Positions 38,695-50,072 of a DNA stretch of 64,000 nucleotides are shown here, in pieces. How positions within the stretch are numbered: position 1 is the first letter of the stretch; every line of letters starts with the position of its first letter. Both the position numbers and the translations under genes were made by a program. The notes beneath the pieces are model-generated. The model was not told the origin of the DNA, searched no databases, and saw nothing but the letters and a program-made list of their open reading frames with translations. The DNA lies in contig NZ_CP036426.1 of assembly GCF_007752535.1 (NCBI RefSeq), positions 5,766,001 to 5,830,000 on the forward strand, in the 5' to 3' direction. The stretch is from Tautonia plasticadhaerens. GTDB lineage: Bacteria > Planctomycetota > Planctomycetia > Isosphaerales > Isosphaeraceae.

Positions 38695-39119
38695 GGGTGT
38701 CGTTCCTCTGGAGTGGCAAGAAATCTCGGCTTCGGGAGGCCTCGCGTGGACCTCGACCCGGGCGGCGTCGACCTCGACCCGGGCCCGTGTCCGACCCCTC
38801 GATGCTCATGGCATGCCGGGACGCCTCGATCGCCCGTACCTTACCACAGCGGGACTCGGGCCTACAGGCCGTCGAACGTCCGGGGCGGCCACCCCGCCGG
38901 GCGGCCCCGGGCCCGGACGCCGCAGGCCCCCGATTCGACCTCACGACACATCCATCCATCGCGATCGGATCGGGGGCCGACGCTTGACCAGGCCCCCAGT
39001 CGCCGGTAAGACTGTTGATAGATCGAACGAGCCAATTTCTCGACGGCCGATCCCCGGGCCGTCCGATCCGTCCTCCCGGATCGTTTGACCGATCTCCTCC
39101 TGTCACTCGGAGCGGCTTG
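38695..39119. other. Divergent intergenic region between superoxide dismutase and adaptor genes
   Basis: This 425-nt region contains a 15-nt direct repeat GACCTCGACCCGGGC at 38749-38763 and 38770-38784, spaced 21 nt start to start, in front of the superoxide dismutase gene. A candidate promoter for the adaptor gene is at 38984-39012 (separate entry). No coding sequence is supported. Confidence 0.45.
38984..39012 (+). promoter_or_regulatory. Possible promoter of the orphan adaptor gene
   Basis: TTGACC (5 of 6 to the -35 consensus) is followed by a 17-nt spacer and TAAGAC (weak -10, 3 of 6). It predicts a leader of about 100 nt before the ATG at 39120. Confidence 0.35.
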
Positions 39120-41135
39120 ATGTCGACGGGCGCCCCCCCCACGGTCGTCACGCGTGCGCCGCATCCCCGGCCCTCCCGCCGGCGATCGACGTTCGTCCGC
39201 CTGGTCGTGGCCCTCGTCCTACTGGGGTCGGCCGGCGCCGCGGCCTTCGCCTTCCGAAACCAGATCAGCTCGATGCCCCTGCTGGCGGCGGACGACGATC
39301 GGGGGTTGCCCAGCGTCCTGGTCGATCAGGGGACGATCCGTTCCTACCTCGTCGAGAGCGGGTCGCTGGAGAGCGCCAACAATACCACGATTTATTGCGA
39401 GGTCGAGGCCCTGCTCGGCACCGTCGGCGGCCCGGACGGCGGCTCGATGGGTGGGCGGGGCGGCGGCGGGGGGGGCGGCGGATCTTCCCGGGGTTCGGGC
39501 GGCACTTCGGGAGGGACGCGCGGCGGGACGTCCTCGACGGGAGGGGTCGGCGGGACCGGGGGAACGGGAGGGATCGGCGGGACCGGGGGAACGGGAGGGG
39601 CCGGCGGTACGGGAGCCGCCGGGGGAATGGGTGGCTCGGGCGGGGCCTCGGGGGGAAGTGGGGGTAGGGGCGGCTCGGGCGGCGGCTCTGGTGGGGGCGG
39701 GGGCGGCGCGGGCGGCGGCGGCGGCGGAATGGGAGGTGGCTCCCAAGCTTCGGCCCTCGCGGATCGACCGAATATCCGCAGCTTCTCCTTCCGCGCCACC
39801 CCTCATATGCCCTTGAATCCGGGAGGGATGTCCGGCTCCGGCAGCTCGACGACGATCGCGACCCTGGGCGGAGCCGGTGGCGGCGGAGGTAGCGGCGGCG
39901 GCGGAGGCGGCGGTCGAGGCGACGAGGAAAATGAGCGGGCCGGGGCGACTCGGATCATCTGGATCATCGACGAGGGCAGCCGGGTCGAGCCCGGTACGCT
40001 CGTCTGCGAACTGGACAGCGCCGCCTTCTTCGACGAGCTCCAGTTGCAGCGGATCCGACACGCCCAGGCGCTCTCCTCGGTCGTGCAGGCCGAGACGATC
40101 CTCCAGGTCGCCGAGATCGAACTCCGGGAATACCGCGACGGCATCTACCCGCAGGACATCAAGCTCGTCGAGCAATACCTCACCAATTGCCGGACCAAGC
40201 AGCAGGAGGCCAAGCTGACCTACGAGTGGGCGCTGGACCTCAATCGCAAGGGCCTCAACTCCGACTCCCAACTCCTCGGCGACCGATTGCTGCTGGAGCA
40301 GTGGCAGATCGAGCTGGAGAACGCCCGGGAGATGCAGCGCCGCCTCATCGACTACACCGGCCGTCGGATCATCACGAGTCTCGAGGCCAAGGTCGAGGCG
40401 GTGAAGGCCGACCTGTTGAGCCAGAAGGCCGCCTTCCAGGTCGAGGACGATCGGCTCAAGCGGCTGGAGCGGGCGATCGCCAATTGCAAGCTCTACGCCC
40501 CGGCCACCGGGGTGGTCGTCTACGCCCGCAACACCAACTCCTGGGGCAGCGTCGAGGACGAGATCGCGGAAGGCTCCACCGTCCGGGAGAACCAGGCCGT
40601 CATCCAGCTGCCCGACCCGGACAACATGCAGGTCCTGGTCAAGATCAACGAGTCCAAGATCAACTCGGTGAGGGAGGGGATGGAGGCGTCGATCCGGATC
40701 GACGCCTTCCCCGACCGTCCCCTCCGGGGCGTGGTCAAGGAGATCAAGCCGATCCCGGTGCCGGCCAACATCGTCTCCGACGTGAAGCTCTACAACGCCA
40801 CGGTGGTCATCACCGGGGGCTTCGAGGGCCTCCGCCCTGGGCTCAGCGCCGAGGTGGCGTTCCACCTGGGGGAGCGGTCCGAGGTGACCAGGGTCCCGCT
40901 CCAGGCGATCCGGTGGGTCGAGCAGACCCCCTTCGCGGCGATCTCGTCCCGAGACGGCAGCGTCACCTGGAAGAAGCTCGACGTCGGCCTGAGGAACCCG
41001 GTCTATGCCGAGATCCTGGGCGGCCTGGAGCCCGGCGACCGGATCGTGGCCGACCCCCTGGCCCTGCCGGCCCCCGACTACGCCGCCCCGCCGGACGGTG
41101 CGCGGATCGCCCTGGCCCCCCCGGCGGGGGGGTGA
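39120..41135 (+). CDS. Orphan HlyD-type adaptor with large glycine-rich insertion
   Basis: A 671-residue membrane fusion protein paralogous to the adaptor at 31489. I use the ATG at 39120 (MSTGAPPTVVTRAPH), just before a basic stretch and a membrane helix (about 26-45). The first lipoyl half ends at IYCEVEALLG (about residue 100). It resumes at TRIIWIIDEGSRVEPGTLVCELD (about 277-299, in two pieces). The intervening roughly 175 residues are mostly Gly/Ser/Thr, including a 9-residue unit duplicated exactly at nucleotide level (27 nt, 39547-39573 and 39574-39600). The rest is normal: a coiled coil (about 305-450) with the shared word GIYPQD, LYAPATGVVVYAR, then the barrel. No transporter, ATPase or TolC gene is adjacent. 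The partner pump is unknown. Confidence 0.85.
   Translation: MSTGAPPTVVTRAPHPRPSRRRSTFVRLVVALVLLGSAGAAAFAFRNQISSMPLLAADDDRGLPSVLVDQGTIRSYLVESGSLESANNTTIYCEVEALLGTVGGPDGGSMGGRGGGGGGGGSSRGSGGTSGGTRGGTSSTGGVGGTGGTGGIGGTGGTGGAGGTGAAGGMGGSGGASGGSGGRGGSGGGSGGGGGGAGGGGGGMGGGSQASALADRPNIRSFSFRATPHMPLNPGGMSGSGSSTTIATLGGAGGGGGSGGGGGGGRGDEENERAGATRIIWIIDEGSRVEPGTLVCELDSAAFFDELQLQRIRHAQALSSVVQAETILQVAEIELREYRDGIYPQDIKLVEQYLTNCRTKQQEAKLTYEWALDLNRKGLNSDSQLLGDRLLLEQWQIELENAREMQRRLIDYTGRRIITSLEAKVEAVKADLLSQKAAFQVEDDRLKRLERAIANCKLYAPATGVVVYARNTNSWGSVEDEIAEGSTVRENQAVIQLPDPDNMQVLVKINESKINSVREGMEASIRIDAFPDRPLRGVVKEIKPIPVPANIVSDVKLYNATVVITGGFEGLRPGLSAEVAFHLGERSEVTRVPLQAIRWVEQTPFAAISSRDGSVTWKKLDVGLRNPVYAEILGGLEPGDRIVADPLALPAPDYAAPPDGARIALAPPAGG
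39547..39600 (+). repeat. Perfect 27-nt tandem duplication inside the adaptor gene
   Basis: Two consecutive 27-nt units beginning TCGGCGGGACCGGGGGAACG are identical except for the last base. They encode a nine-residue Gly/Thr/Ile-rich repeat within the glycine-rich insert. This suggests recent slippage-type expansion. Confidence 0.8.
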
Positions 41136-42594: not shown

Positions 42595-43338
42595 TCACCG
42601 CGAGGCGATCGCCTGCGCCAGGGGCTGCACGATCCGGGGGATCACCTTCTCCTGGACCAGTTCCTCGCCGATCTCGCACTGGCGGCGGAACGAGTCGACG
42701 AAGCTCCGCTCCGGCCCCGTGCCCCAGTATTGCCGGACCGTGAAGTAGACGCTGATCTGGTCCTCGGCGTACTCGCCGGTCCGGATCTGATAGGCGTTGG
42801 TCCGGGTCTCGACGCTCAGCCGGCACTGCAGCCGGCACGACTCCTCCAGGGCCAGGGTGACCGACGGCTCATAGTGGATCACCCGGCCGCCGGCCACGTC
42901 GAGCAGGCCTTCCGGCCCCCAACCGATGCCGAGGGCCTCCGCCACGACCTCGTCGTGGTTCCCCTCGTAGGTCAGGTCGAAGCCGAACATCACGTCCAGG
43001 GCCTCGCAGTCCAGGACGCTGATCGTCAGCAGGTGGGGGGCCAGGTCCAGCACCATCTCGTGCTGCCGGTAGACCTCCTCGGGGGTCGGCGGGTTGACGA
43101 AGCCGGAGCAGAGCCGACGCTGTTCGATCGCCAACCAGCGGTAGCTGCCCCGATCCTTGTCCCCCTCCAGCACCAGGTCGCCGTTCTCCCTCGTGTAGAA
43201 ATTCTGGAGCTCGGGGAACCCCTTCTTCATCTGCTCGAAGAAGTGCAGCACCGTGTCCCGGGCGGTGGGGAGCTCCATTTCCGTATTCAAATTGACATTG
43301 ATATAAAAATCGTCCGCGTTGGATTGCAACCGATTCAT
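42595..43338 (-). CDS. Uncharacterised soluble protein, probably lineage-conserved
   Basis: A 247-residue protein starting at the ATG at 43338 (MNRLQSNADDFYINVNLNTE). I do not recognise a family. It has mixed alpha/beta composition, no signal peptide and no membrane segment. Notable segments are HFFEQMKKGFPELQNFYTRENGDLVLEG (two halves), SYRWLAIEQRRLCSGFVNPP and DVMFGFDLTYEGNHDEVVAEAL. The first 20 codons are less G+C-rich than the surroundings. It has a perfect -10 box upstream (43439-43444). The composition and the normal codon pattern argue that it is a real, expressed protein. Confidence 0.75.
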   Translation of the reverse strand: MNRLQSNADDFYINVNLNTEMELPTARDTVLHFFEQMKKGFPELQNFYTRENGDLVLEGDKDRGSYRWLAIEQRRLCSGFVNPPTPEEVYRQHEMVLDLAPHLLTISVLDCEALDVMFGFDLTYEGNHDEVVAEALGIGWGPEGLLDVAGGRVIHYEPSVTLALEESCRLQCRLSVETRTNAYQIRTGEYAEDQISVYFTVRQYWGTGPERSFVDSFRRQCEIGEELVQEKVIPRIVQPLAQAIASR

Positions 43339-43736
43339 GGTCTTCTGGTCCTGCCGCTTGGGGAGCCCGGCTCGCCCCCCCGACGGGGACGGTCGGAGGA
43401 GACCGGGCGAGAGCCGCCGTCCGTGCTCGATCCGATCCATTATAGCGGTTCCGGGTGCCGAAGTAATGCGACCGGACCGCCCCTGGCCCCGATCCCGCCC
43501 CGGGACACCCCTCCCCTCCCCGTCGAGTAACGGGACGGCGATCGCCGCAACCCATAATCGTGCAATGGGTTCGGGAGCGCATTCCCTCGGAGGCACGGAT
43601 CCCATCCGAGACCATTTCGGGCACGCTTGCATGTGTGGTTGGGTCGCGTGCCTCGAACGACCGTCCTCGCCGCCCATCGGAGCGTAAGTCCCTGCCCTGC
43701 AAGGACCAAGCGACAGGCGTCTGCGGGCGATGGGGA
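43339..43736. other. Intergenic region upstream of the unknown 247-residue gene
   Basis: This 398-nt region holds the promoter listed at 43439-43444. Its right half (43560-43736) has a single GCAATGGGTTCG word at 43562-43573 that matches 12 nt of the repeat family seen at 10.2 kb, possibly by chance. Short Arg-rich open frames on either strand are not supported. Confidence 0.4.
43439..43444 (-). promoter_or_regulatory. Perfect -10 box upstream of the unknown 247-residue protein gene
   Basis: On the minus strand the sequence reads TATAAT, identical to the sigma-70 consensus, in strongly G+C-rich surroundings. The -35 region 17 nt upstream (ATTACT) is weak. The predicted leader is about 95 nt. 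Confidence 0.5.
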
Positions 43737-46700
43737 TCAGACGCGCGTCCGCTCCGCTTCGGGGTGACGGAGGCGGATTGGGGGAATCTGGTCGATGGGG
43801 AGAGTGGGATCAACAAAGAGGCGGAGGCGGAAATCGCTGATTCGGTGAACTGGGGGGATCCGGAAGGAATCACCCCCGCGGCCCGAGGGGATCGCCGCGA
43901 TCAGCTCGCCGTCGTCGGCCGTCAGGGGGACGGTCCGGGGGTGGCCGACGAGGACCATCGGCGGGACCGGGGAGCCGGGAGGGTCGGTTTGCACGGCGAG
44001 GGCCCAGGGGCGGCCGGGGAGCCGAGGCCGTCGGATGCTGTAAGAGACGCTGACCTCCGGGGAGGGGCCGGGGACGACGGTCCGGGCGGTCGGTTCGACC
44101 CCGGGGGAGTGGAGGATCCGGCCGTCGACCTCGGCGAGGCCCAGGACGGTGATGTGGTACGGCGCGACCTCGCCGGGGGGGAGGTCCAGCGGGGCGAACC
44201 CCTGGCGGCCGTATTCCAGTTCGGAGACGACCAGCCGATCGGCGGCGGGGTCGTCCGGGCCGTCGGCGGGGGCCCCGGCCTTGAGCAGCACGAGCGACTG
44301 GGAGGTCGCCGGGCTCCATCGCCATCGCAGGTGCACGCGGCCCGAACCGCCGATCCGGACGGCCCGGAGCTCGCTCGGGTCGGGGATCCGGGTCGACGCC
44401 ACGGGGCGGCCGACGGCGCAGGTGCCGGCCCAGAAGGTGAAGGGGGTGTAATAGCAGAGGCCCGAGGTCGGCGGCCGGGCGTCGACGGCGTGGTCCGTCG
44501 CGGTGGTCGCCAGCCAGTGACCTTCGAGGGCGTCGGCCTGCCCGGCCGGGATCCGCTGGCCTTCCAGCAGGGCCGGGGGCCGATCGGACCGGAGGATCTT
44601 GACCTGGCCCCGCTCGGGCTCCTCCCAGGAGAAGTGGACCCGGCCGTCGGGCATCGGGGCCGGCACCAGGGAGATCAGGCCGGAGACGGGCGGGTGGGGC
44701 ATCGCGGCGATCGAGACCCCCCGGGAGAGGCGTTCCTTCCCCTCGGGGGTCCGGTAGCAGGCGAAGATGCGGTAATGGTAGACGCGGTCGTCGTCCAGCC
44801 CCCGGTCACCGGCCCCGTCGGGGAGGGCGTCGACCCGGACCCCGTCGTCGGGCCCGGTCGGGGGGGACCCCTGCTTCCGGGCGACACGGACGCCGGTCGC
44901 GCCCCGGGGCAGCCGCCAGGAGAGGCCGACCTCGCCGCTCCGGGCGTCGACCCGGACGTCCTGCACGTCGGCCAGCACGAGGACCGGCCCGACGACGGCC
45001 GGGGCCACCGAGTCGACCCCGTCCCTCCGGCCGAAGGCCGCATAGCCGACGACCTCGCCGGGGGAGGCGGCCGGGTCCCGGCACTCGGTCGCGTCCGTCT
45101 CGGCGATGACGGTGCCGTCGGCCGGGGAGGCCGGGACCCCCCGAGCCTTGCGGACGACCCGGATGCTCACCGGCCCGAGCCCGTCGGGGGCCGGCGGGGT
45201 CCATCGCAGGACCACGGCATCGCGCTCGACCTCGGCCCTTAGGTCGGTCGGGGGGTCGGGGGGGCATCGCCGGAGGGCGTCGCGGGCCTCGTCCAGGTCG
45301 GCGGACCACTCCAGGGCGCGTCGGAGCAGCGTCCGGGCCTCGGCCGGGTCGCTGCCGAGCAGCGACGAGCCCCGGGCCGAGAGGGAACGGGCTTCCCGGA
45401 GCCCCCGGTTGACCTCGTCGAACGCCTTGCGGACCTCGGGGTCGGTGGGGTCGACCATCGAGGCCCAGGCCCTCAGGGCGGACTGGGCCTTGAGCAGGTG
45501 CCGACGGGAGAGTTCCTGCTCGAAGCCCGACCGGGCCCGCTCGATCTCCGAGAGGCGCTGCTTGACCCGCTCGACCGCCTTCCTCGTCCCGGCGTGGTCG
45601 GGGGCGAATTCCTGGATGCGATGCAGGTGGGCCAGGGCCGAGGCGTAGTCCCGGGCCTTGTGGGCGCGGCGGGCGGCCTCGAAGTGGCGGAGCATCGGCT
45701 CCCGGAGCTCAAGCCGGAAGCCGCAGGCGCATCGGGGCTCGTCGACCCAGCGGCCCCGCTTGCAGATCGGGCATTCCCAGCGGAGGGAATCCCCGCAATG
45801 CCGGCAGGCCCGGCCGTTCTTCTCCGCGTCCCGATGCTGGGTGACGCCCCGGCAGGACCGGCACCGCAGCAGCCGGATCGGCCCGGCCGGCTCGGTCCGG
45901 GCTTCCGGCGCCTCCCCCGAGGCGACTCCCATCCCCCGGCAGGCGCGGCGGATCAGCCGATCGGCCCGGTCGGGGCCGATGCCGAGGCTCTCCCCCTCGA
46001 CCACCAGGGCCGCCTTCGCCCCGGACGCGAGCCTCGCCTCCCCCTCGAGGCAGAAGCGGACGGCGCCGAGGAACCGCTCCTCGGCCTCGAACTCCAGGGT
46101 CCGGTCGTACCGGGCCCGGGCCCCGGGGGTGCCCAGGTGGGACTGGGCGTAGGAGACGGCCTCCAGCCAGGCGGTCATCTCGGCCGTGACCCGGGACTTC
46201 TGCCGCCATCGCCGGCGTTCGTCGTCGGCCCGGGAGACGACCTCGGCCTGGGGGGCATCGCGCTGGAGCCCCAGGGCGTCGTAGAGATCCCGGCGGCCGA
46301 GGTGTTCGAGGGTCCTGCGGATCTGGCCCCGGGTGGCGGAGTCGATCACGTCGGGGGTGGGCTCGTCGGGCTCGTCGGCCTCGGCGGGGGCCTCGGGCAT
46401 CGGCGCGATCGGTTCCAGGAGCCGGTCCAGCTCCTCGGCCGGGACGCCGATCCGGTCGGCCTCGCGCCGGAGGCGGTCGCGGTCGGAGACGGTCAAACCG
46501 CCTTTGGAGGCCCGGAGGCGGACGAGTCGCTGGATCTCGTCGAGCTTGCGGTCCAGCTCGGCCCGGCGGAGCGCGGCCAGCTCGGCGTCGTACGACGCCC
46601 TGGCGGTGGGGTCGCCCAGCAGCGTGGCCCGGATGGCGGGGATTTGGTCGAGGTACGAGTGATAGGTATGCCGGTGCTTCGGGTTGCGGGCCCCGGCCGA

Positions 46701-46793
46701 CCACTTCGGCTGGCAGCGCGCAAGGGCCTCCTCGACGGCGGCCCGATCGGCCCCCTGGGGGATGCCGAGCATCTCGTAGTAATCGGCGACCAT
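43737..46793 (-). CDS. Large intracellular protein: two J-like modules, two zinc ribbons, helical region and FN3-like repeats
   Basis: A 1018-residue protein without signal peptide or membrane segment. I chose the ATG at 46793 (MVADYYEMLGIPQGADRAAV). Residues 4-72 and 169-233 look like J domains (YYEMLGIPQGAD..., LYDALGLQRDAP..., each ending near a RASYD or RARYD box), but the HPD tripeptide is absent in both. Each is followed by a short helical pair (GLTVSDRDRLRREADRIGVP and LGIGPDRADRLIRRACRG). Two zinc ribbons lie at 311-357: CRSC and CRHC, then CPIC and CAC. A helical, TPR-like part spans 365-510. Four beta-sandwich repeats resembling fibronectin type III follow (about 513-605, 606-698, 703-802 and 806-905), then a C-terminal beta domain. 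I infer a cytoplasmic scaffold; function is unknown. Confidence 0.8.
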   Translation of the reverse strand: MVADYYEMLGIPQGADRAAVEEALARCQPKWSAGARNPKHRHTYHSYLDQIPAIRATLLGDPTARASYDAELAALRRAELDRKLDEIQRLVRLRASKGGLTVSDRDRLRREADRIGVPAEELDRLLEPIAPMPEAPAEADEPDEPTPDVIDSATRGQIRRTLEHLGRRDLYDALGLQRDAPQAEVVSRADDERRRWRQKSRVTAEMTAWLEAVSYAQSHLGTPGARARYDRTLEFEAEERFLGAVRFCLEGEARLASGAKAALVVEGESLGIGPDRADRLIRRACRGMGVASGEAPEARTEPAGPIRLLRCRSCRGVTQHRDAEKNGRACRHCGDSLRWECPICKRGRWVDEPRCACGFRLELREPMLRHFEAARRAHKARDYASALAHLHRIQEFAPDHAGTRKAVERVKQRLSEIERARSGFEQELSRRHLLKAQSALRAWASMVDPTDPEVRKAFDEVNRGLREARSLSARGSSLLGSDPAEARTLLRRALEWSADLDEARDALRRCPPDPPTDLRAEVERDAVVLRWTPPAPDGLGPVSIRVVRKARGVPASPADGTVIAETDATECRDPAASPGEVVGYAAFGRRDGVDSVAPAVVGPVLVLADVQDVRVDARSGEVGLSWRLPRGATGVRVARKQGSPPTGPDDGVRVDALPDGAGDRGLDDDRVYHYRIFACYRTPEGKERLSRGVSIAAMPHPPVSGLISLVPAPMPDGRVHFSWEEPERGQVKILRSDRPPALLEGQRIPAGQADALEGHWLATTATDHAVDARPPTSGLCYYTPFTFWAGTCAVGRPVASTRIPDPSELRAVRIGGSGRVHLRWRWSPATSQSLVLLKAGAPADGPDDPAADRLVVSELEYGRQGFAPLDLPPGEVAPYHITVLGLAEVDGRILHSPGVEPTARTVVPGPSPEVSVSYSIRRPRLPGRPWALAVQTDPPGSPVPPMVLVGHPRTVPLTADDGELIAAIPSGRGGDSFRIPPVHRISDFRLRLFVDPTLPIDQIPPIRLRHPEAERTRV

Positions 46794-49598: not shown

Positions 49599-50072
49599 AT
49601 GCGATGGCTGTCACGCTGGTGGGGGGAGTTCACGGGGTTCGCCCTGAAGGGCAACGTGCTGGAGCTGGCCGTGGCGGTCGTGCTCGGCGGGGCGTTCCAG
49701 GGGGTGGTCGACGGGCTGGTCACGCACATCATCATGCCGACGCTCAGTTACGTGACGCCGGGGGCGGATTCCTACGCCTCCTGGAAGATCGGCCGAGTCG
49801 AGGTCGGCGGCTTCCTGGCCTCGGTGGTCAACTTCGCCCTGATCGCGCTGGCGATGTTCCTTGTCATCAGGAAGGTCGTCGGCTCGATCCGCAAGGCCGT
49901 CGATCCCCCGGATCCCTCCGGGCCGACCACCAAGGAATGCCCCTACTGCCTCTCCAAGATCCCCGACCCCGCCACCAGGTGCGCCTATTGTACCGCGGAT
50001 CTCCCGGCCCCCCCGGCAAGCCCGAAGGGCCGATCACCTTCGAGAGGGTCGGGGAGGAAATCGAAGCCCTGA
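49599..50072 (+). CDS. mscL: Large-conductance mechanosensitive channel with C-terminal zinc ribbon
   Basis: A 157-residue protein. MscL opens under membrane tension to release solutes during osmotic downshock. The family N-terminus is EFTGFALKGNVLELAVAVVLGGAF (about 10-33, two segments) with the pore-lining helix, then THIIMPTLSYV. The second helix is GGFLASVVNFALIALAMFLVIRKVV (about 70-94). Instead of the usual C-terminal amphipathic bundle the tail has CPYC and CAYC (about residues 113-130), a zinc ribbon, then a basic end. A GGGAGG site precedes the ATG at 49599. Confidence 0.9.
   Translation: MRWLSRWWGEFTGFALKGNVLELAVAVVLGGAFQGVVDGLVTHIIMPTLSYVTPGADSYASWKIGRVEVGGFLASVVNFALIALAMFLVIRKVVGSIRKAVDPPDPSGPTTKECPYCLSKIPDPATRCAYCTADLPAPPASPKGRSPSRGSGRKSKP

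Follow-up and report, generated by a model that had tools for sequence, protein, structure and literature searches.

Within a 64,000-nucleotide window of the Tautonia plasticadhaerens genome (contig NZ_CP036426.1, positions 5,766,001 to 5,830,000), the minus strand carries an open reading frame (ORF) that runs from 46793 down to 43737 and encodes a protein of 1018 residues, whose start Met at 46793 is conserved in the homologues. An earlier note on this DNA had proposed that the product combines two J-like modules, zinc ribbons, a helical region and FN3 repeats, and profile and model evidence bears this architecture out (Table 1). The gene is present in a single copy in its own genome. Within its family (f1), 30 of the 37 genomes sampled have homologues, most of them full length and some of them contig fragments; the gene lacks its start in G013 and is split in G014. 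The protein on record for Tautonia sociabilis, a member of the same genus, is 77% identical. No full-length match was obtained in 22 other relatives outside f1, and a partial match in G040 (residues 35-131, E 3.9e-4) was dropped as being on the scale of a J-domain only. When the phylum was sampled with 294 genomes, scoring two candidates per genome, only the own genome matched at 1e-8, and no homologue was found in plasmids, phages or viral contigs. The expectation that no well-described family covers the full length held in profile searches and in Pfam, NCBIfam and PADLOC, which gave no match above a curated cut-off and no curated full-length family.

Table 1. Coordinates of the gene, its predicted parts and associated loci (window positions unless stated otherwise)
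Feature	Position	Strand	Basis
Whole gene, 1018 aa: J1-J2-zinc ribbons-helical-FN3x4-C-terminal domain	43737..46793	-	Open frame and homologues
J1, predicted HPD-less J-domain (residues 3-72)	46578..46787	-	Profile matches
J1 helix II-III loop signature W-[SA]-x-G-[TA]-R-N-P-K, replacing HPD (residues 31-39)	46677..46703	-	
Helical pair after J1 (residues 73-128)	46410..46577	-	Model helices; aligns with J2 part
J2, predicted HPD-less J-domain (residues 166-235)	46089..46298	-	Model J fold; hhalign to J1
J2 loop signature W-x-x-x-[SAT]-[QR]-[VT]-[TS]-A-E-[KM]-T-A-W-L (within residues 193-210)	46164..46217	-	
Helical pair after J2 (residues 236-290)	45924..46088	-	hhalign and model
Two zinc ribbons, 8 conserved Cys (residues 308-360)	45714..45872	-	Alignment
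Helical, TPR-like region (residues 366-508)	45270..45698	-	Pfam TPR_19, weak, 5/22 members
FN3 repeat 1 (residues 511-603)	44985..45263	-	Profile and hhalign
FN3 repeat 2 (residues 604-700)	44694..44984	-	Profile and hhalign
FN3-like repeat 3 (residues 703-803)	44385..44687	-	hhalign to repeats 1 (weak) and 2
FN3-like repeat 4 (residues 804-908)	44070..44384	-	hhalign to repeats 1 and 2
Conserved C-terminal domain (residues 909-1018)	43740..44069	-	Alignment
Downstream gene, no Pfam match, true start maybe lower	42595..43440	-	Near the gene in 11/21 loci
Cluster: Hsp70-vWA fusion (696 aa), Hsp70a (555 aa), VIT-vWA, GrpE, double-GTPase (424 aa)	contig C1, ~6.276-6.291 Mb (L155:325-14930)		

A J fold is predicted for both N-terminal modules, by profile for J1 and by a model of moderate confidence for J2. 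The Pfam DnaJ profile scores J1 of the 1018-residue protein itself at 18.5 bits, under the curated cut-off of 27.8, and matches J1 in all 22 aligned members (E up to 0.1, best 2.5e-9); against the PDB, the J1 profile retrieved the J-domains of DNAJB6 and DnaJ at 3e-6 to 4e-5. Across the class it also matched 25 non-f1 genomes (1.8e-6 to 9.5e-5); these hits, most of which fall in ORFs of 300-400 residues, were taken as ordinary DnaJ/CbpA proteins without checking each one. The AlphaFold model of the J1-J2 part was built from a two-sequence alignment (predicted template modelling score 0.41); its predicted local distance difference test (pLDDT) values are 71-87 over residues 161-290 and low, about 48-68, over the J1 part. 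In a structural search with the J2 model nearly all leading rows were J-domains, aligned over residues about 153-240, with VIA Z up to 8.7 and, for the DnaJ of 5NRO, Z 7.3 (root-mean-square deviation 1.9 over 61), subject to the tool's caution that Z below about 13 may be due to chance for helical models. Foldseek on its own gave a weak result (best E 0.054). When each module was taken together with the helical pair that follows it, hhalign aligned the two over 113 columns with a probability of 94.9 and E 4.7e-8, in support of the internal duplication that had been suggested.

In the alignment rows read, the HPD tripeptide is absent from the helix II-III loop of both J1 and J2, which confirms the loss described earlier. 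The site assigned to it in J1 (QPKW, residues 28-31) needs correction, since the alignment puts HPD slightly downstream, at about 32-35. With HPD missing, we term the protein J-like rather than a canonical Hsp40 member. The loop signatures are nearly unchanged across the homologues, and the HPD loops appear to have been replaced rather than to have decayed, by a conserved WSxG[TA]RNPK in J1 and VTAEKTAWL in J2. The earlier note had concluded that the modules probably do not stimulate Hsp70 in the usual way; given the strong conservation of the sequences that stand in for HPD, a match to an unusual Hsp70 is the better reading.

The remainder of the protein was assigned as follows. Cysteines 311, 314, 330, 333, 341, 344, 355 and 357 of the zinc ribbons are invariant in the 22-row alignment, and one further homologue (L022) apparently lacks the zinc ribbon. 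A profile of residues 513-764 matched titin at E 1.4e-13, and Pfam fn3 was found in 10 of the 22 members (best 0.0015). Among the FN3 repeats, hhalign found 1 and 2, 2 and 4, 1 and 4, and 2 and 3 alike, with 1 and 3 more weakly alike and 3 and 4 not alike; by the same method the last 110 residues are not recognisably FN3. The AlphaFold model of this part reached a pLDDT of only 34, so the FN3 assignment is made from sequence. On average, conservation is lower at the FN3 positions than in the J loops.

A related architecture is on record. Kaur et al. (2020, eLife; PMC7159879) include in the GAP1-N2 double-GTPase systems an FNIII protein, which in the HSP70/GrpE theme is 'typically fused' to DnaJ or TPR, and place this theme predominantly in actinobacteria and firmicutes. 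On the basis of this description, the own genome was searched for parts of the HSP70 theme. GAP1-M and double-GTPase-2 are present, and a cluster encodes an Hsp70-vWA fusion, a second Hsp70 (Hsp70a), a VIT-vWA protein, GrpE and a double-GTPase with an N-terminus that looks zinc-ribbon-like by eye (Table 1); a GAP1-N2/M protein of 1096 residues is encoded about 13 kb beyond. The cluster resembles the HSP70 theme but lacks its FNIII-DnaJ protein. Hsp70a, which apparently has no alpha lid, is encoded about 466 kb away from the 1018-residue gene. Two further GTPase loci were noted: a 787-residue double-GTPase (L104:9297-12425) with orthologues in every one of the 37 f1 genomes but in none of the 22 others, adjoining a weak GAP1-N2-like gene in the own genome, and a 299-residue double-GTPase (L105:8329-9899), its start zinc-ribbon-like by eye, together with a GAP1-N2-only protein of 214 residues.

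With orthology set at 70% identity or more, Hsp70a is found in 29 of the 37 f1 genomes; the 22 other relatives have only Hsp70s at about 35-46%. Both genes occur in 28 f1 genomes, the 1018-residue protein without Hsp70a in two (G013 and G014), Hsp70a without the protein in one (G012, which is 81% complete) and neither in six, giving a Fisher probability of 8e-5 at the tips, with no correction for relatedness. A tree was made by a quick method from the double-GTPase found in all 37 genomes and has some long branches, including G013 and G014; on it, three independent pairs agree, none disagrees and one shows no difference, too few for significance. Both genes are absent from G009 and G015, although in each genus the two further genomes sampled carry the pair (G026 and G035 in the case of G009). 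At the syntenic site in G009, beside the downstream gene, a short stretch resembles the last residues of the protein (E 0.04), and given this remnant of the gene end the loss there is probably real. A profile re-search of the seven negative genomes returned fragments only (best 1.6e-6, residues 468-513, in G009), which were not counted as presence. As a control, the 299-residue zinc-ribbon GTPase does not significantly track the protein (14/30 vs 1/7, p 0.20).

The loops follow the same pattern. In genomes with Hsp70a the J1 signature is kept in 28 of 28 and the J2 signature in 27 of 28, the exception (G004) differing by one residue. Both signatures are lost in G013 and G014, the two protein-positive genomes without Hsp70a. 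J1 is missing in G013, where the frame begins shortly ahead of residue 80 and the one upstream of it is unrelated; the split gene of G014 consists of a J1-J2 frame and a zinc-ribbon/FN3 frame. We scored positions that are invariant in 22 others, with loop limits set after inspection. G014 keeps 7 of the 18 such positions that lie in the loops, but 31 of the 34 found elsewhere in residues 1-300 (p 1.1e-4) and all 17 of the zinc-ribbon region; for everything outside the loops its total is 97 of 116. G013 retains 4 of the 18 loop positions, compared with 17 of the 34 found elsewhere in residues 1-300 (p 0.08, with J1 missing) and 89 of the 116 non-loop positions. The two genomes are sisters (Shimodaira-Hasegawa-like approximate likelihood ratio test 98).

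The Hsp70 side of the contact is altered as well. In DnaK, R167 pairs with D393 of the linker and D481 of the substrate-binding domain, the HPD Asp acts on R167, and R167H suppresses DnaJ D35N (PMC7289447, PMC5519331); the HPD-Arg contact is described there as invariant and essential in Hsp70 machines (PMC7289447). Of 27 Hsp70a orthologues that cover the R167 position, 25 have A and two have S. The linker sequence DVTP is NVLS in Hsp70a, and the linker Asp is Asn in all 28 orthologues covering it; the ATP-binding loops are intact. R stands at the R167 position in 11 of 11 f1 Hsp70s classed as DnaK by length and linker, and in the Hsp70-vWA fusion in 16 of 18, with G in two, including the own genome. 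A literature search restricted to open-licence papers, and thus weak evidence of absence, returned nothing on the 1018-residue protein or on a paired loss of HPD and R167.

Surroundings of Hsp70a were compared in 22 genomes (5 to 20 kb each, with FHA and vWA domains scanned in one genome). The Hsp70-vWA fusion lies nearby in 18 of them; genes for an FHA membrane protein and an FHA protein are found in 16 (one truncated at the edge) and 14, respectively. The core thus consists of Hsp70a, Hsp70-vWA, FHA and vWA proteins, with GrpE and the GTPase linked in part of the family. A home-made J profile found no J-like ORF in 24 Hsp70a stretches from these genomes; the 1018-residue protein itself reaches into one such stretch (G030). 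Orthologues of the 1096-residue GAP1 occur in 17 of 30 protein-positive and 0 of 7 protein-negative f1 genomes (Fisher p 0.009). The double-GTPase present in every f1 genome gives no information on co-loss. Genes of about 970-1000 residues beside five planctomycetal GAP1-M genes were considered as the FNIII component and rejected, with no profile match in the five and no fn3 in the one scanned.

Elsewhere in the class, we inspected 13 Hsp70 ORFs from loci picked as good Hsp70a matches (12 loci and L114), which are not a random sample. The R167 position is D in 11 and A in one; R is found in the thirteenth, which is DnaK-sized. A J-like gene adjoins six of the 12 short Hsp70s (in five genomes of a second family, f2, and in G367, which belongs to yet another), and each of these J-like genes lacks HPD. 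The f2 cases (L231 and L236-L239, e.g. L237:10227-13289) place an R167D Hsp70 and an HPD-less J-like gene on the same strand, and the two f2 J-like proteins scanned both also have an MshEN domain. In G367 (L114:8098-12103) a protein with an HPD-less J module, an Ig-like domain and an FGE-sulfatase domain is divergent from an R167D Hsp70.

Around the 1018-residue gene itself, the window and 20 homologous loci (372 kb) were compared, 21 in all, with ORFs clustered. The check for consistent linkage to an Hsp70, ATPase or vWA gene was negative, and eight Hsp70-cluster proteins gave no tblastn match (E 1e-6) in the window or the 20 loci. In G030 the distance between the gene and Hsp70a is 17 kb, more than the linkage search covered; we do not consider this compelling evidence of linkage, since several genomes have both genes on one contig. 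The chief neighbours are the Pfam-less downstream gene (11 of 21 loci) and an aminotransferase (13 of 21). This pair stands without the 1018-residue gene in G009, so that it was judged not to form a system with it. Two other genes in the window were noted by eye on the plus strand, an MscL-type channel-like protein with a C-terminal CPYC/CAYC zinc-ribbon-like tail (49599-50072) and a secretion-adaptor-like protein with a very long glycine-rich insert (39015-41135).

Despite the absence of linkage, the 1018-residue protein goes with a distant Hsp70 by phyletic pattern and by loop conservation. We give about an even chance to the reading that it is a cytoplasmic co-chaperone or scaffold of an HPD-independent Hsp70 to whose gene it is unlinked, and the 'assembly or sensing scaffold' role proposed earlier is plausible. 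The replaced helix II-III loops, rather than an HPD-Arg contact, would dock the two J-like modules on the dedicated Hsp70a, and the zinc ribbons, helical region and FN3 repeats may bring a client or partner to it. The protein might thus be the unlinked counterpart of the FNIII-DnaJ protein in the GAP1-N2 HSP70 theme. Physical contact, the direction of regulation, a link to the GTPases and the biological role are matters that we infer.

Several observations weigh against this co-chaperone reading. No Hsp70, ATPase or vWA gene is linked to the gene in the 21 loci, and Hsp70a carries an Arg one residue before the lost R167 position. R167 is also lost across a wider family of short Hsp70s (12 of the 13 ORFs), and six of the 12 short-Hsp70 loci have no J-like gene detectable with the home-made profile. 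As G013 and G014 are sisters on long branches, their loop loss counts as one evolutionary event, and both genomes also lack other cluster genes. Genomes lacking both genes measure 4.2-6.2 Mb, whereas sizes of up to 10.9 Mb occur among those that have the two; the co-loss could be due to general gene loss. As to the GTPases, GrpE lies near Hsp70a in seven and a double-GTPase in four of the 22 genomes, 13 of 30 protein-positive genomes have no GAP1 orthologue (six have another GAP1-M, seven none), and one protein-negative genome has a GAP1-M. The tie to GTPase, GrpE and GAP1 is therefore weakly suggested by the own-genome cluster and is not general.

An alternative is a pseudo-J scaffold independent of Hsp70, in which J1 and J2 are binding modules that hold a complex together; its co-occurrence with Hsp70a would then come from smaller genomes having lost both. 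In its favour, none of the rows read has HPD, the two modules could pair with one another, and genomes with neither gene sit in the lower size range; mitochondrial proteins of the Pam16/Tim16 type provide a precedent for a J fold without HPD, their partner being a J-protein. In G014, however, which has no Hsp70a, the loops diverged while the zinc ribbons and the rest of residues 1-300 were kept (with limits set post hoc), and the 299-residue GTPase does not significantly track the protein; we regard this scaffold as unlikely, though a real contender. A decoy or client-delivery factor acting on canonical DnaK without stimulating it would suit the retained J fold and the presence of DnaK-like Hsp70s with R167. 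Such Hsp70s occur in protein-negative genomes too, whereas the protein tracks Hsp70a, R167 is kept in 11 of 11 DnaKs, and the protein has no HPD; we consider action on DnaK highly improbable. Compared with Hsp40/DnaJ proteins, the protein shares the J fold and the profile match to DnaJ and DNAJB6, and differs in having no HPD and in its replaced, conserved loops; compared with the canonical DnaK-DnaJ contact (5NRO; D35-R167), the same elements are involved, J loop and Arg/linker Asp of the nucleotide-binding domain, and here both sides are changed.

Membership in a GTPase/GAP1-N2 conflict system, with the FN3 part sensing and the J part secondary, appears improbable to us. The domain set fits the description by Kaur et al. 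(2020; PMC7159879), where J, TPR-like and FN3 parts come together in one protein, and the own genome has an Hsp70, a second Hsp70, GrpE, a double-GTPase and GAP1-N2. All 17 genomes with the 1096-residue GAP1 are protein-positive (Fisher 0.009), and another double-GTPase is in all 37 f1 genomes. Yet that GAP1 is missing from 13 of 30 protein-positive genomes, seven of them without any GAP1-M, the gene is unlinked to the cluster genes, and FN3 conservation is on average below that of the J loops. Compared by description only, the protein differs from the GAP1-N2 FNIII protein in being unlinked and in having two HPD-less J modules and two zinc ribbons. As it lacks both HPD and linkage to a GTPase, we place it neither among the canonical J-proteins nor in the GAP1-N2 systems.

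Taken more broadly, the co-chaperone reading may extend to planctomycete orthogonal Hsp70/J-protein pairs in which the HPD-Arg167 contact is replaced on both sides, A or S going with WSxGTRNPK in J1 and D with a basic RKYATGK-like loop in another family. These pairs would be insulated from DnaK/DnaJ and here wired to vWA/FHA proteins, with GrpE and double-GTPases joining them in some genomes; this proposal is tentative, and we hold it to be possible rather than likely. With a naturally occurring pair in which the contact is replaced on both sides, and a lineage in which the Hsp70 is absent and the loops are lost, it would become possible to test directly whether J-domains can drive Hsp70 without HPD and how cross-talk is avoided; a class of degenerate planctomycete J-domains would also gain a suggested function.

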